53,678 nt of DNA, taken from assembly GCA_017470505.1 (NCBI GenBank), contig JAFUYO010000032.1, positions 1 to 53,678 of the forward strand, read 5' to 3'. Each line of letters opens with the position of its first letter. The first letter of the stretch is position 1. Below the pieces are notes generated by a model, which saw only the letters and a list, made by a program, of their open reading frames with translations, was not told the DNA's origin and did not search any database. This stretch comes from Butyrivibrio sp. Lineage in GTDB: Bacteria; Bacillota; Clostridia; Lachnospirales; Lachnospiraceae. A program made the translations under genes and the position numbers. Shown in pieces: positions 17,904 to 28,674 of the stretch.

Positions 17904-17997
17904 TTATCATATATTAGTGTGCTATAGTCTGCTGTTGGGACCTGCTTCAAACAGCAAAAAAGAGATGAACATCGTTGTGGAACGCGGAGGATATGTA

Positions 17998-19326
17998 TTG
18001 AGAAGAGAAATGGCCGGGAGAATGTGGTACTGTGCGTTGAAAAGAAAAGTGGCCGGGAGAATGTGGTACTGTGCGTTGAAAAGAAAAGTGGCCGGGGGAA
18101 TGCGGTACTGTGCGTTGAAAAGAAAAGTGACTGCGGGTATATGTATGACACTTTTGATGGGCTTGGTGCTTATGGGATGTGCGGCGCAGGACAAAAAGAT
18201 GTACACGTCGGGCATCTTTGCCATGGACACGATCATGGAGCTGCAGGTAGCGGGGCATGAAGAGACACTTTCGGGAGCCGAAGAAATCATAAGACATCTG
18301 GAAAAAGAACTCTCGGTTACGGATGAAAACAGTGAAATCAGCAGACTAAATATAAACGGCAGCGCAGAGCTGACACCCGATGTGGCCGGGATAATGGAGG
18401 GCGCGCTGAAGGTCTGCAGAGAGACTGACGGGGCGCTTGACATATCAATCTATCCGGTCCTGAAGGCCTGGGGCTTTACGACGGGAGAGTACAGGGTACC
18501 ATACTCTGCCGAACTTGAAGAACTGTTAAAAAAAGTTGATTATAGGAATGTTGCGATGTCGGACGCCGAAAGCGCGGGAGGGACAGATGCCGGAGAGGGA
18601 AACGCTGAAGGCAAAGAGGCAGGAGATAATAGCGAGGAAAAGAACGTCAGATATGGAGAGAACATAACAGGAACAGGGCAAAACGCTGCAGGAGATAGCA
18701 GTAAAAAGAGTCTGGAAGGATCAGAAGACAGCGTAACCACTGAAACATCTGTCTCTGCAGAGATACTCCCGGGGATGGAGGTTGACCTTGGAAGCGTCGC
18801 CAAAGGCTATGCCGGAAAAGCGGTTGCGGAATATATGAAGGAGAGAGGGGTGACATCAGCCCTGATAAACTTAGGCGGAAATGTCCAGTGCGTCGGGCGA
18901 AAGCCAAACGGAGAGAGGTGGAAGGTCGCAATAAAGAGTCCTTTTGAGGAGAGCAAGTCGGGATTGTTCGGAGTCCTTTTGGCAGAAGATACAGCCATAA
19001 TCACGTCCGGCGGTTATGAGAGGTACTTTGAGGAAAATGGTGAAGTTTACTGGCATATCCTGGATCCATCGACCGGAGAGCCGGCTAAGAACGGACTTGC
19101 ATCCGTAACTGTTGTCGGAAGTGACGGGCTTAGGTGCGACGGGCTGTCAACGGCGCTCTTTGTGATGGGGCTTGATAGAGCGATAAAGTTCTACCGCGTC
19201 AGCGATGGCTTTGACGCAATATTTATCACAGAGGGTGGCGAAGTTTATATCACGGAAGGGCTTGCCGGTGACTTTGAGCTTTCATCCGAGTACTACAACG
19301 CACCTGTGCATATTTTGTCAAAATGA
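17998..19326 (+). CDS. apbE: FAD:protein FMN transferase (ApbE family lipoprotein)
   Basis: A 442-residue protein if started at TTG 17998, which has a perfect GGAGG site 7 bases away. ApbE attaches FMN to Thr of exported flavoproteins (for example Rnf and Nqr subunits). Core motifs are FAMDTIMELQ, VDLGSVAKGYAGKAV, LINLGGNVQCVG, TSGGYERYF, HILDPSTGEPA and DGLSTALFVMG. Two oddities: residues about 3-41 are three in-frame copies of a 13-residue unit (RKVAGRMWYCALK) before the lipoprotein signal (GLVLMGC), and an acidic insert of about 70 residues sits just before the VDLGSVAKG motif. The true start could lie inside the repeats. Confidence 0.9.
   Translation: MRREMAGRMWYCALKRKVAGRMWYCALKRKVAGGMRYCALKRKVTAGICMTLLMGLVLMGCAAQDKKMYTSGIFAMDTIMELQVAGHEETLSGAEEIIRHLEKELSVTDENSEISRLNINGSAELTPDVAGIMEGALKVCRETDGALDISIYPVLKAWGFTTGEYRVPYSAELEELLKKVDYRNVAMSDAESAGGTDAGEGNAEGKEAGDNSEEKNVRYGENITGTGQNAAGDSSKKSLEGSEDSVTTETSVSAEILPGMEVDLGSVAKGYAGKAVAEYMKERGVTSALINLGGNVQCVGRKPNGERWKVAIKSPFEESKSGLFGVLLAEDTAIITSGGYERYFEENGEVYWHILDPSTGEPAKNGLASVTVVGSDGLRCDGLSTALFVMGLDRAIKFYRVSDGFDAIFITEGGEVYITEGLAGDFELSSEYYNAPVHILSK
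18004..18120 (+). repeat. Three tandem 39-bp repeats inside the apbE N-terminus
   Basis: Units at 18004-18042, 18043-18081 and 18082-18120, nearly identical, keep the reading frame (13 codons each). Each holds an ATG just after GGGAGA or GGGGGA, so each could be a secondary start. Confidence 0.9.
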
Positions 19327-20244: not shown

Positions 20245-20284
20245 AACGAAATCAATTATATCAGAAATCGCATATATGATACCA

Positions 20285-20450
20285 GTGCAAAAAGTCATTC
20301 ACCACTCATGCCCTCATGAAAGTGGTGAAATGACTTTATTGCACGCCCCGATATGAGCAATTAGTGGGTAGGGGCCCCGCGGTTTGCGAATATCGGGGAG
20401 GATTGTGGGAGTGCGAAGCACGGAACAATCCGTAGGTATCATTTTGCACT
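20285..20450. repeat. Compound hairpin/repeat region upstream of the EamA gene
   Basis: Three stems in a row: GTGCAAAAAGTCATTCACCACT with its near-perfect complement (20285-20344); CCCCGATAT / ATATCGGGG with GGGGCCCC inside (20346-20399); and GGATTGT...GTGCGAAGCAC...ACAATCC. The region is framed by GTGCAAAA (20285) and TTTTGCAC (20450), and another GTGCAAAATGATGC lies at about 20546. It resembles a dispersed intergenic repeat and could also act as a 5' leader for the EamA gene. No protein-coding sense is seen. Confidence 0.55.
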
Positions 20451-23592: not shown

Positions 23593-25254
23593 TTGAATAA
23601 AAAGAAAATCCTTGAAAATAAAATGTTCCTGTACCTCACGGAGTTTTTTGCGGGAATGAGCGTGATGGCGGTGGAGCTGGGAGCGAGCAGGCTCCTTGCG
23701 CCGTACTTTTCATCGTCGCAGATCGTGTGGACCATCATAATAGGAACGATCATGATCGCCATGGCTCTTGGAAATATCTACGGAGGAAGGAAAGCAGACA
23801 GGGATCCGGACCCCGGAAAGCTCTACACGAGAGTTCTCATTGCAGCCATCTGGATAGCGGCAATACCTGTTGTCGGCAAGTACATAATCCTTGCTATCTC
23901 AGCTGTGCTGATATTTACGGTTAACAGTAACTTCCTTATAATTGCTGCCTTTGCGGCATGTATGGTGGTGTTTGTGTTTCCTCTTTTCCTTTTGGGAACC
24001 GTGACGCCCTCGCTTGCCAAGTACACCACCGACTCGCTTGATGACAACGGCAGGATCATTGGAACACTTGGGGCGTTTAATACCGTGGGCAGCATCATCG
24101 GTACCTTCGTTCCGACCTTTGTGACAATACCGGCGGTTGGAACATCCATAACCTTCCTGATCTTTGCAGGGATACTCCTGGTCCTTTCTATCGTATACTT
24201 TGTAAGCCCGGGGGATGGGAATACTTCTGCACAAAAGCCTTCAGACGGGGGCAAAAAAAAGATAATAGCAGGGATACTCATCTTTATTATCTGTACGGTC
24301 TTCGGGCACAGCACGAGCTTTGCTTTCTGGGAAAATAATCTGACGTACGAGGGAGAGTCAGTCTACAACTACCTCCAGGTAAAAGAGACTGACAGCACCG
24401 TGATACTCTCGACCAACGTTCTCTTTGGCGTCCAGTCAATGCTGGTAAAAAACGGAGCGCTTACCGGGATGTACTACGACTATGCAATGGCTGCGCCGTA
24501 TATGGCGGGGATAAAGGAAAAAGAGGCTTCGGGCGATGACCTTAAGCTCCTCATCCTCGGTATGGGCTCAGGCACCTACGCAACGCAGCTGTCGAGGTAC
24601 TTTGACAATATCAATATCGAGGGCGTCGAGATTGATGATAAGATAACGGACCTCGCACACAGATATTTTGAGCTGCCAGAGGAAACAAAGGTCACAACCT
24701 ACGACGGAAGGGCATATCTTGCCGCAATAGACGGGCAGTATGACGTTATCATGGTCGATGCATATCAGGACATCACCATCCCGTTCCAGATGTCTTCGAA
24801 AGAGTTTTTTACCATGGTAAAAGAGCACCTCTCTCCCGGTGGAGTCATGGTCGTCAACATGAATATGTACAACGAGGGAGCCGGAACAGAGGATGATGCC
24901 ACGATCAACACATATCTAGCAGACACGATAAGCTCTGTGTTTGAAAACGTGATAACAGTAAAGGTGCCGGGCGCCACCAACAGAGAGCTCTTTGCGACTG
25001 ACTCAGGTGAGTTTCTAAAGCGCCTTGATAAGAACACCGGGATGGAGGAAAATGATGCGCTGCGCGCCATGATGCAGCGCGTTCAGGACACATACACAGT
25101 CTACGAGAGTACCGGGCACATCATGACAGACGACAAGGCTCCGGTTGAGCTTTTGGGAATGAGGCAGATCGACTCAATCATAAAGAACGAGGTCGAGTTC
25201 TACAGGATGATCTACAACACGAAGGGAATAAAAGGACTTCTGGAGCTTTTGTGA
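23593..25254 (+). CDS. Membrane-anchored spermidine synthase-like protein
   Basis: A 553-residue protein starting at TTG 23593, with AAGGAG about 9 bases upstream; the next in-frame ATG, 10 codons on, has no site. Residues about 10-240 hold some seven to eight membrane helices (LFLLGTVTPSLAKYTT, GAFNTVGSIIGTF). Residues about 300-500 are a Rossmann aminopropyltransferase-like domain: LLILGMGSGTYATQ (SAM loop), NIEGVEIDD (acidic cofactor residue) and VDAYQDITIPFQMSSKEFF (catalytic Asp region). True polyamine synthesis is not certain, since membrane forms often lack tested activity. No speA, speD or other polyamine gene is adjacent. Confidence 0.83.
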   Translation: MNKKKILENKMFLYLTEFFAGMSVMAVELGASRLLAPYFSSSQIVWTIIIGTIMIAMALGNIYGGRKADRDPDPGKLYTRVLIAAIWIAAIPVVGKYIILAISAVLIFTVNSNFLIIAAFAACMVVFVFPLFLLGTVTPSLAKYTTDSLDDNGRIIGTLGAFNTVGSIIGTFVPTFVTIPAVGTSITFLIFAGILLVLSIVYFVSPGDGNTSAQKPSDGGKKKIIAGILIFIICTVFGHSTSFAFWENNLTYEGESVYNYLQVKETDSTVILSTNVLFGVQSMLVKNGALTGMYYDYAMAAPYMAGIKEKEASGDDLKLLILGMGSGTYATQLSRYFDNINIEGVEIDDKITDLAHRYFELPEETKVTTYDGRAYLAAIDGQYDVIMVDAYQDITIPFQMSSKEFFTMVKEHLSPGGVMVVNMNMYNEGAGTEDDATINTYLADTISSVFENVITVKVPGATNRELFATDSGEFLKRLDKNTGMEENDALRAMMQRVQDTYTVYESTGHIMTDDKAPVELLGMRQIDSIIKNEVEFYRMIYNTKGIKGLLELL

Positions 25255-25826: not shown

Positions 25827-25878
25827 TTATGAATGAGTCAGTACACTAGCGCTATCACATACATAACAGGAGAAAACC

Positions 25879-28674
25879 ATGGCAGGAAAATATCTAACCA
25901 TTGGAATACTGGCACATGTTGACGCCGGCAAGACGACACTCTCAGAAGGAATGCTGTATCTTGCCGGCGCTATTAGAAATATGGGGAGGGTTGACCACAG
26001 GGATACCTTCCTTGATACCTATGAGCTGGAGAGAAGCCGCGGGATAACCATCTTTTCCAAGCAGGCGGTCTTTGATTACGGGGATGTCACCTTTACGCTT
26101 CTTGATACGCCGGGGCACTCCGACTTTTCGCCGGAAATGGAGAGGACTCTTCAGGTCCTGGACATGGCAGTTCTCATCATAAGCGCAAGGGACGGCGTGA
26201 CAAGTCAGGCAAAGGTTCTTTTTAAGCTCCTTGAGCACTACAGGGTGCCCTTTGTCATATTTGTAAATAAGATGGACCAGCTCGTCTCAGGTTCGGGAGA
26301 GCAAGACGCCGGCGTAGATGAGGGCACCAGGAAGGAACTCATTTCAAAGATAAAGGAAGGGCTCGGAGCTCACGTCGTTGATTTTACAGAAGGAACTGAC
26401 AGACCCGATGTACAGGAGGAGCTCGCAGTCTGCGACGATGCTCTCCTCGAGGGCTTCTTTGAAGGGCATAAGATAACACGGGATGAGGTAAAAGAGCTGA
26501 TCCGCGAAAGGAAGTGTTTTCCGTGTCTTTTTGGCTCCGCGCTTAAGATGGAGGGAGTAAAAGAGCTGCTGGATCTGATCGCAGACTATTCCACCAGAGA
26601 AACTAAGGGGCGAAAAGATGCGGGATCGGGCGCACCCGTGGCAGGGAGCCCTGCTGCCGGCGCACCGAAAGGAGAAGAAGGGGAAGATACTTCATTTGGC
26701 GCGCGCGTTTTTAAGATCAGCAGGGAGGGACAACTGCGCCTGACGCACATGAAGATCACAAGCGGCTCTCTTAAGATACGGGACCGCTACGGCGATGAGA
26801 AGATAGATCAGATAAGAATATACTCAGGAGATAAATATACGGCGGTTCAGGAGGCGACAGAAGGAATGATCTGCGCTGTCACCGGGCTGTCACACACGAG
26901 AGCGGGTCAGGGCCTCGGGAATCTTGACAGCAGTGAGATATCAGAGATACTTCAGCCCATTCTCTCAGCGGCGCTCATACTTCCGGAAGAGGCGGATGTA
27001 ACTGTTGTCTACAGGCAGCTAAAGAGCCTCGAAGAGGAGGAGCCGATGCTCAGCGTCAGGCTGAACGAAGCTACGGGTGACATAGAGGTGCAGATAATGG
27101 GCGAGGTGCAGAAGGAGATACTAAAGCACCTGTTAAAGACCAGGTTCGGTCTGGAAGTTTCCTTCGGGCCGGGGCACGTGGTCTACAAGGAGACAATAGC
27201 TGAGCCGGCGGAGGGAGTCGGGCACTTTGAGCCACTGCGCCACTACGCTGAGGTTCATCTCCTCTTAGAGCCCGCAGAGCCCGGCAGCGGCATTGTGATC
27301 GACAACAGATGCAGCACGGATGTGCTCTCTCTGAACTGGCAGAGACTGATCCTGACCCACATCGCCGAGAAAAAACACGTCGGTGTTCTGACAGGATCAG
27401 AGCTCACCGATGTTAAGATAACTCTTTTAACAGGGCGCGCCCACGAAAAGCACACGGAGGGCGGTGACTTCAGACAGGCCACCTACAGGGCGATAAGGCA
27501 GGGGCTTATGCAGACGAGGAGCGTGCTGCTCGAGCCTGTATTTGACTACCGCTGTGAGCTGCCCCAGGAGTTTGTCGGGAGGGCCATGAGCGATTTTGAG
27601 AGAATGAACGGACAGGTAATGCCACCTGAGATTTCCGGAAATACGGCAATACTCACAGGGAGGGTTCCTGCGGCCTGCCTCGGGGACTATGCATCTACCC
27701 TCTCGGCCTTCACAAAGGGGGAGGGAAAGCTCTTTACAACGCTATCGGGCTATGCCCCCTGCCACAACACAAGGGAGATCCTCGATGAAAAGAAGTACGA
27801 CCCGGAGGCTGATCTGTCGAACACGCCGGACTCTGTATTCTGCTCGCACGGTGCGGGGATAGTGATCCCGTGGAATGAGGTTTCTTCGTACATGCATCTG
27901 CCTTTTGCTTACAGCAAAGGAATGGAGACAGTCGGGACGGATATGACGGACTCAATTGACATGGATGCCCTCAAAGACCTGCAGGCCAGGATAAAGAGAA
28001 ATGAGAAGAAGGAGAGATCCTTTGACGAGATAGAGAGGGAGATAAGGGCGACTGAGGGTGAGCTGAAGGACATCTTTGAGAGGACCTACGGCCCTGTAAA
28101 AAAGAGGACTGCTACGGAGACTACCGTCTACGAGGGGATGACGAAGGAGGAAAAGGAGGCCCGCCGCGACTTATCTGTTGAGCAGCAAAAGAGGGATAAG
28201 TACCAAAACGAGAAGGGGCAGGATCCTGATGAGTACAGGGAGTATCTGCTCGTTGACGGGTACAACATAATCTACGCTTCTGACTCACTTAAGGAGCTTG
28301 CCGCCCATGACCTCAAGGCTGCAAGGGATGCGCTGACCGACATGCTCATCAACTTCCAGGGCTACAGGAGGGAGAGAGTGATCCTTGTCTTTGACGCCTA
28401 CAGGGTCCACGGGGGAAAAGAACACGTCGAGGAGAAGGCAGGTCTTTTGACGGTATATACAAAGGAGGCGGAGACGGCGGATCAGTACATTGAGAAGGCT
28501 GCGCATGAAATCGGAAAAAAATACAGAGTCTATGTTGCTACCTCCGATGCCATCGAGCAGGTCATAGTAATGGGGAGCGGTGCCATAAGGCTCTCGGCGC
28601 GTGATTTTCTTGCGGAGATAGACAGAACAAGTCAGATGATAACGGACAGGATAGAGACTATAAAAAAATTATAA
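25879..28674 (+). CDS. TetM/EF-G-like ribosomal GTPase fused to a YacP/Rae1-like NYN nuclease domain
   Basis: A 931-residue protein with CAGGAG 8 bases before the ATG. Residues 1 to about 680 follow the elongation factor G / ribosomal protection layout: G1 AHVDAGKTT (12-20), the RGITI switch, G3 DTPGH (76-80), G4 NKMD (130-133), then domains II to V. A charged linker (about 680-785) leads to an NYN (PIN-like) domain: LLVDGYNIIYA with D793, VILVFDAYRV, TADQYIEKAA and VYVATSD. B. subtilis Rae1 (YacP), of this fold, cuts mRNA on the ribosome. The fusion therefore suggests a factor that enters the ribosomal A site and cleaves RNA or rescues stalled ribosomes. Tetracycline resistance is possible but not shown. 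Confidence 0.88.
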   Translation: MAGKYLTIGILAHVDAGKTTLSEGMLYLAGAIRNMGRVDHRDTFLDTYELERSRGITIFSKQAVFDYGDVTFTLLDTPGHSDFSPEMERTLQVLDMAVLIISARDGVTSQAKVLFKLLEHYRVPFVIFVNKMDQLVSGSGEQDAGVDEGTRKELISKIKEGLGAHVVDFTEGTDRPDVQEELAVCDDALLEGFFEGHKITRDEVKELIRERKCFPCLFGSALKMEGVKELLDLIADYSTRETKGRKDAGSGAPVAGSPAAGAPKGEEGEDTSFGARVFKISREGQLRLTHMKITSGSLKIRDRYGDEKIDQIRIYSGDKYTAVQEATEGMICAVTGLSHTRAGQGLGNLDSSEISEILQPILSAALILPEEADVTVVYRQLKSLEEEEPMLSVRLNEATGDIEVQIMGEVQKEILKHLLKTRFGLEVSFGPGHVVYKETIAEPAEGVGHFEPLRHYAEVHLLLEPAEPGSGIVIDNRCSTDVLSLNWQRLILTHIAEKKHVGVLTGSELTDVKITLLTGRAHEKHTEGGDFRQATYRAIRQGLMQTRSVLLEPVFDYRCELPQEFVGRAMSDFERMNGQVMPPEISGNTAILTGRVPAACLGDYASTLSAFTKGEGKLFTTLSGYAPCHNTREILDEKKYDPEADLSNTPDSVFCSHGAGIVIPWNEVSSYMHLPFAYSKGMETVGTDMTDSIDMDALKDLQARIKRNEKKERSFDEIEREIRATEGELKDIFERTYGPVKKRTATETTVYEGMTKEEKEARRDLSVEQQKRDKYQNEKGQDPDEYREYLLVDGYNIIYASDSLKELAAHDLKAARDALTDMLINFQGYRRERVILVFDAYRVHGGKEHVEEKAGLLTVYTKEAETADQYIEKAAHEIGKKYRVYVATSDAIEQVIVMGSGAIRLSARDFLAEIDRTSQMITDRIETIKKL

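Follow-up and report, generated by a model that had tools for sequence, protein, structure and literature searches.

A GTPase joined to a Rae1-type nuclease

Translational GTPases of the EF-G type bind the factor site of the ribosome and reach with their domain IV into the A site. The tetracycline protection proteins Tet(M), Tet(O) and Tet(S) are EF-G-like five-domain GTPases for which A-site binding is likewise expected, and domain IV of Tet is described as occupying the ribosomal A site (PMC8161019). Rae1 (YacP) of Bacillus subtilis is described as attacking mRNA in the ribosomal A site (PMC12320835, PMC6613710). In ten clostridial species, Tet proteins that have acquired a YacP-like NYN RNase domain were reported, and a new resistance mechanism was proposed for them (Atkinson 2015, PMC4342817); the fusion architecture was therefore already known. 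We examined a protein of this architecture, evidently a member of the same group, encoded on a 53,678-nucleotide stretch of DNA from Butyrivibrio sp. (Lachnospiraceae; assembly GCA_017470505.1, contig JAFUYO010000032.1), the whole of which is called the window below. What seems to be new here is that the fusion is the resident Rae1 of its carriers and, so far as tested, no tetracycline-resistance protein; we found no published account of what the fusion replaces in a Rae1 literature that was only partly covered. Based on comparisons of gene content, gene order and sequence, we consider it very probable that the fused gene acts as the resident Rae1 and replaces the standalone gene.

The fused gene is one frame with no internal stop in the window translation. 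An AGGAG-like ribosome-binding site lies upstream of it, at about 25868-25872, and no conserved leader upstream of the start was visible by eye in 11 relatives. Its parts are the following:

25879..28674, +, whole fused gene, 931 amino acids plus stop
25891..26589, +, GTPase (G) domain, residues 5-237, with complete GTP-binding motifs (Pfam GTP_EFTU, 4.4e-49)
26701..26913, +, EF-G-type domain II, residues 275-345, a weak match (Pfam EF-G_D2, 6e-5, 23.5 bits, cut-off 27)
26953..27168, +, EF-G-type domain III, residues 359-430 (Pfam EFG_III, 1.8e-8)
27172..27516, +, EF-G-type domain IV, residues 432-546 (Pfam EFG_IV, 1.3e-17)
27433..27474, +, domain IV tip loop GRAHEKHTEGGDFR, residues 519-532; counterpart in Tet(M/O/S) YYSPVSTPADFR (alignment)
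27523..27771, +, EF-G-type domain V, residues 549-631 (Pfam EFG_C, 5e-16)
27772..27900, +, C-terminal extension of the GTPase, residues 632-674, common to the unfused sub-family (alignment)
27901..28242, +, charged linker, residues 675-788 (alignment of fusions)
28060..28092, +, linker motif ELKDIFERTYG, residues 728-738 (pattern in 77/95 fusions)
28246..28665, +, NYN_YacP (Rae1) nuclease domain, residues 790-929 (Pfam match, 4.6e-45, covering profile positions 1-142 of 166)
28255..28257, +, predicted active-site aspartate D793 (alignment and match to the Rae1 structure sequence)
28393..28395, +, predicted active-site aspartate D839, of FDAY (alignment)
28480..28482, +, predicted active-site aspartate D868, of TADQY (alignment)
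28546..28548, +, predicted active-site aspartate D890, of ATSD (alignment)

The matches to GTP_EFTU, EFG_III, EFG_IV and EFG_C, all above the Pfam cut-off, place the first part among the EF-G-type GTPases, with domain II below its cut-off. The NYN_YacP match of the second part reaches 154 bits (cut-off 24.6, E=4.6e-45), and this half also matches the sequence of the solved B. subtilis YacP/Rae1 (PF05991; 5mq8, 5mq9) with E=4e-26, D793 aligning with the aspartate of the Rae1 VDGYN motif. The likeness to B. subtilis Rae1 covers the NYN domain, the four aspartates and an inferred ribosome-dependent cleavage of mRNA; the differences are that the window copy is fused behind a translational GTPase, lies at another locus and lacks the C-terminal tail.

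For an alignment of 95 fusions, the window protein was joined to 77 sequences from a scan of public genomes and 17 from the class survey described below, identical rows being entered once (97 rows passed the score and coverage limits, and 94 were left after removal of identical ones, before the window protein was added). D793, D839, D868 and D890 are each identical in all 95, and the same holds in a joint comparison of 25 fused with 20 standalone NYN domains. The GTPase residues D15, K18, T57, D76, H80, N130, K131 and D133 are likewise kept in 95/95. Domain IV is the most conserved domain among the fusions: its mean identity to the window protein is 0.75, that of the G domain 0.57. That domain IV and the acidic site are both so well conserved argues that both ends of the protein are in use. 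The linker region varies in length: the spacing from H673 to D793, 119 residues in the window protein, ranges over the alignment from 76 to 148 (median 112), and the linker is charged at a median of 39% of its residues, with E728, L729 and I732 invariant in 57 rows.

An earlier note, made from the letters of the window, had described an uninterrupted 931-codon frame comprising a GTPase with all its motifs, a charged linker and a C-terminal Rae1/YacP-like NYN domain with its acidic residues retained. Translation and Pfam confirm the frame and its layout, the residue counts above bear out the motifs and the predicted acidic site, and the 154-bit Pfam match together with the similarity to 5mq8 supports the Rae1/YacP assignment. 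The note had also raised the possibility of an assembly artefact. The scan of public genomes gave 375 stretches encoding a relative, of which the best 80 were retained; all of these 80 match nearly the full protein, at 47-69% identity over the best segment, and come mostly from Butyrivibrio and other Lachnospiraceae. An artefact was rejected, since all 80 are close to full length and the carriers include isolates as well as the one-contig genomes G371 and G317; the fusion is real and recurs.

Fused and standalone Rae1 across genomes

Among 243 genomes drawn from the window organism's class, we found the fusion in 89, a standalone Rae1 in 72 and neither in 82. The NYN domain of the fused genomes lies in frames of at least 600 amino acids in 84 cases and in broken or contig-edge frames of 295-451 amino acids in the other five, and a match to the GTPase half is also present in all 89; standalone NYN_YacP frames measure up to 220 amino acids. 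Not one of the 243 genomes has both a fused and a standalone copy, where 26 would be expected under independence (G317, G371 and G404 have weak further NYN matches, which lie below the family cut-off and were left out of the Rae1 counts). A draw of 149 genomes from the phylum gave 11 fused copies among the matches listed, and here too no genome had both. This mutual exclusion lies beyond what the earlier note had considered, and lends support to its idea of an mRNase.

The window's own family was surveyed in 200 genomes, a copy being called fused by the length of its frame. An NYN_YacP match is present in 180 of them, in frames of at least 800 amino acids (163 genomes), of 516-738 (4) or of less than 300 (13). 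Two of the 13 short frames (G086, G037) derive from fused genes that are broken or cut by a contig end, which leaves 11 standalone ones. The fused gene is usually single-copy, and no genome of the 200 carries it together with a clear standalone copy. In 20 genomes of this survey (e.g. G003, G044, G177), neither the NYN_YacP domain nor a GTPase of the clade described below was detected.

As the exclusion and Fisher tests ignore relatedness, which is a weakness of the replacement reading, we also examined synteny. In a genome with a standalone copy (L100), Rae1 is encoded between rlmB and a sigma-factor gene, with the mini-RNase III gene (mrnC) ahead; the order is cysS-mrnC-rlmB-[rae1]-sigma factor, the last being named sigH after its B. 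subtilis counterpart. In B. subtilis, rae1 shares a transcript with yacO, the rlmB homologue (PMC6613710). The window's own genome has cysS, mrnC, rlmB and the sigma-factor gene one after another; rlmB and the sigma-factor gene overlap by 4 bases, with no Rae1 between them. In a hand-chosen set of 29 genomes (16 fused, 13 standalone), an NYN gene stands behind rlmB in none of the fused and in seven of the standalone ones (Fisher 0.001). Of the 16 fused genomes, 15 have the sigma-factor gene as the next recognised gene after rlmB; the remaining one, G341, shows none in the stretch behind rlmB examined. Both states also occur side by side within genera: in g227, G249 has a standalone gene in the slot and G221, G317, G371 and G404 are fused with a slot devoid of Rae1, and in g222, G402 has the standalone gene in the slot and G216 and G245 are fused. 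Because of these two contrasts and of G185, a member of the window's family discussed below, gene order suggests at least three separate displacements of Rae1, unless standalone genes were regained.

Several observations count against replacement. The window's own genome, in which the fused protein is the only NYN_YacP match, is 84% complete, though the near-complete congeners G190, G354 and G388 show the same state. G034 has, beside a fused copy, a second NYN piece at a contig edge that is not assignable. Behind rlmB of G387 and G221 (L210, L212) lies a gap of 570-630 bases in which no NYN match was found, NYN being all that was looked for there. Finally, Rae1 is not directly behind rlmB in six of the 13 standalone genomes: it is found 2-14 kb from rlmB on the same contig in G270, G314 and G246 and on another contig in G052 and G405, and G292 lies at a contig end. 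An empty slot alone therefore does not imply a fusion.

The GTPase clade and a proposed hand-over

The GTPase parts were compared in a tree of 53 rows, obtained by a quick search with SH-aLRT support only, and in a second one of 63 rows. The partial L159 and the own-genome factors L003, L004 and L008 were left out of the trees, EFGlike_L006 was kept out of the second for its long branch, and L172 was too short for it. The fusions form one clade with an unfused sub-family from Clostridia, for which we found no name (SH-aLRT 100 with 53 rows, 99 with more rows), and have a single origin on the GTPase tree (100, 53 rows). The unfused proteins, of about 640-725 amino acids, share the domain IV loops and the C-terminal extension with the fusions but have no linker and no NYN domain, ending at the extension or within about 15 residues. 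The pattern of this extension, SVFC..G...V.W......MH, is common to fused and unfused members and unlike the extension of Tet(M/O/S). Two cysteines, C655 and, where domain V ends, C628, are identical in 95/95 fusions and H673 in 93/95; all three are identical in the 43 fused and unfused members compared, with an additional cysteine after them in 14 of 17 unfused ones. These residues are candidate metal ligands, and the C-terminal extension of the clade may hold a metal site.

Some unfused proteins bear on the history of the fusion. L161, from a plasmid of Ligilactobacillus salivarius, falls inside the fused clade with 53 rows and at its base with 63, and its domain IV tip is altered (ASNVHTVGGDFR); it has probably lost its NYN part after transfer. 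In the 63-row tree, the fusions as a whole have the unfused GTPase of G185 as their sister (support 98), and this genome also has a standalone Rae1 in the slot. G185 thus looks like a genome that holds both likely parents apart, in a state resembling that before the fusion. On a tree of the NYN domains, all fused ones fall together with four standalone domains from the window's family (support 98). In the second GTPase tree, the group famUnf contains four fragments of fused genes that are broken or cut by contig ends (L168, L169, L171, L175), so that changes of this label do not correspond to a number of losses.

With the five best candidates per genome scored, an intact unfused GTPase of the clade was found in 0/89 fused genomes of the class and in 15/154 others (p=0.001); the fused genome G260 has a contig-edge fragment of one. 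In the family survey, an unfused clade GTPase accompanies the standalone NYN gene in 8 of 11 genomes and is present in none of the 20 NYN-less ones, a significant association. One of the eight, G090, has an in-frame stop in the GTPase, and G090 as well as G060 (a 34% match, counted as outside the clade) were assigned by identity and not by tree.

We favour, with some reserve, a model in which the fused protein is the organism's Rae1, an A-site mRNA endonuclease held in one chain with a dedicated EF-G/Tet-type GTPase, the two acting by hand-over. The GTPase body would dock on ribosomes with an empty A site and domain IV would reach the decoding centre. Upon GTP hydrolysis domain IV would withdraw, and the NYN domain, on its tether of about 110 residues, would take its place and cleave the codon thus exposed; the resulting non-stop complex would be left to tmRNA-type rescue. 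Both domain IV and the Rae1 domain are expected in the same space, and a sequential hand-over is therefore likelier than joint binding. That A-site cleavage is coupled to GTP, we regard as an evenly balanced proposition. The protein is probably a housekeeping factor dealing with stalled ribosomes. The earlier note's proposal that an mRNase acting at the ribosome is combined with a translational GTPase gains support from the fusion itself, the predicted Rae1 identity of the NYN domain and its intact acidic site. A broader reading is more speculative, and we hold it only tentatively: the GTPase-timed mRNase would sense the vacant A site, the unfused GTPase clade would be an unrecognised helper of Rae1 wherever the two genes are separate, as the logic of the fusion would have it, and many "tetracycline resistance" genes would encode a housekeeping rescue factor.

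The strongest alternative, which we find unlikely, is that the chain carries two independent activities, an EF-G-like factor (for translocation, recycling or ribosome splitting) and Rae1, linked merely so that they are co-expressed or brought to the ribosome, with no GTP-driven coupling. The length, variability and charge of the linker (76-148 residues) would suit such an arrangement, as would the 62 of 72 standalone Rae1 genomes that show no clade GTPase. So would domain IV, where the fusion clade keeps a histidine aligned with the tip histidine of EF-G. The likeness to EF-G extends to the order of the domains, but identity is low and the fusions have their own clade. Independent activities are harder to reconcile with a single fusion event that many families have retained while losing both parents, with a linker motif found in 77/95 fusions, and with the family survey, where NYN-less genomes have no GTPase (20/20) and standalone-NYN genomes mostly have one (8/11).

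Other results speak against the coupled model or the history proposed for it. In a maximum-likelihood tree of the NYN domains the fused ones are not one clade, though a single clade is not rejected (p-AU 0.457), and the GTPase search was confined to five candidates in each class genome. Across the class, standalone Rae1 occurs in 10 of 15 genomes with an unfused clade GTPase and in 62 of 139 without one, a difference that is not significant (p=0.17); the GTPase is therefore not obligatory for Rae1, which evidently works without it in many bacteria. The NYN match of the window protein ends at profile position 142, and the Rae1 C-terminal tail (positions 143-166) is absent, a region in which the B. 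subtilis loss-of-function change R166P is located (PMC6613710). When residues are counted from 787 onwards, 46/95 fusions have a short NYN part like that of the window protein (130-149 residues) and 49/95 a longer one.

The fusion bears on how free Rae1 selects stalled ribosomes. In most sampled genomes of a large gut and rumen family, the fusion that replaces Rae1 ties the nuclease physically to a translational GTPase, and it makes directly testable whether GTP hydrolysis licenses the cleavage of mRNA in the A site.

Less likely roles: drug protection, RNA maturation and defence

Atkinson 2015 (PMC4342817) reads such fusions as Tet, with the RNase domain adding to resistance, and a role in protection from tetracycline or another drug is the next alternative. 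Among solved relatives, TetO and TetM indeed score closest to the GTPase half, whose best NCBIfam model is tet_protect, and relatives are publicly annotated as TetM/TetW/TetO/TetS family. Yet the window protein scores 402 bits on tet_protect, about half of the cut-off of 775 (Tet(M) 878, Tet(O) 851), and its identity to Tet(M/O/S) is about 30% (about 26% to the genome's own EF-G). The clade of fusions and unfused relatives is separate from Tet(M/O/S) with SH-aLRT 100, in a tree that sampled Tet(M/O/S) but not Tet(Q), Tet(W), OtrA or TetB(P). Loop III of domain IV is described as displacing tetracycline (PMC4750697, PMC8161019), and its Pro509 in Tet sits in the drug site (PMC8161019). This loop reads AHEKHTEGGDFR in the window protein and YYSPVSTPADFR in Tet(M/O/S), so that the SPVS loop is missing; loop I also differs, as does the C-terminal extension. 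Since Tet(M) can remain active when loop III residues are replaced by alanine (PMC4750697), the loop sequence alone is no proof against Tet.

Two plasmid-borne relatives, L160 (on a 252-kb plasmid of Agathobacter rectalis) and L161, carry the TetM/TetW/TetO/TetS annotation, and no predicted resistance gene lies over either; the annotation is likely a mislabel, and such labels, if general, inflate resistance-gene counts in gut bacteria. By the sequence tests available, the GTPase half is not a tetracycline-protection protein. Tetracycline resistance was set aside on score, loop, clade and distribution, the gene being present in most of the family, and we rate drug protection as improbable. The fusion is outside the Tet criteria tested and replaces Rae1, in difference from the reading of Atkinson 2015. 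The TetM-type label of the earlier note does not hold in its strict sense, given the score below cut-off and the different loop III, and its antibiotic-response reading is not supported either, on the same grounds and because of the usually single-copy gene with full-length frames in 163/200 family genomes.

A nuclease for rRNA or tRNA maturation, guided to pre-ribosomes by the GTPase, ranks next and is scarcely probable either. NYN_YacP domains were once proposed to act in rRNA and tRNA maturation (cited in PMC4342817), and the standalone Rae1 of L100 adjoins the mini-RNase III and rlmB genes, but B. subtilis Rae1 is described as cutting or destabilising mRNA in a translation-dependent manner (PMC6613710, PMC12320835). 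A defence or self-killing factor against phage, which the link between nuclease and translation recalls in outline only (translation-blocking defence) and which the earlier note had offered as self-defence, is very improbable and was set aside, as the fused protein had no hit among the PADLOC defence families and the gene is broadly distributed, usually single-copy (163/200 genomes) and without neighbours conserved beyond close relatives.

No conserved operon partner emerged over the 80 fused loci. The window neighbours matched anywhere in these loci are the upstream DUF6553 protein (11 loci), the downstream MCP (25) and ten others with one to seven loci each. Upstream, 23593-25254 (+) encodes a 553-amino-acid protein with a spermidine-synthase-like match only at 318-423 and relatives in 7/80 fused loci. 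The window also contains a Clostridiales-1 small RNA (RF01699) at 20277-20441 (+), with 133.7 bits at a gathering score of 48, and a 39-base tandem repeat of 3.4 copies at 17998-18129, within the frame 17917-19326.

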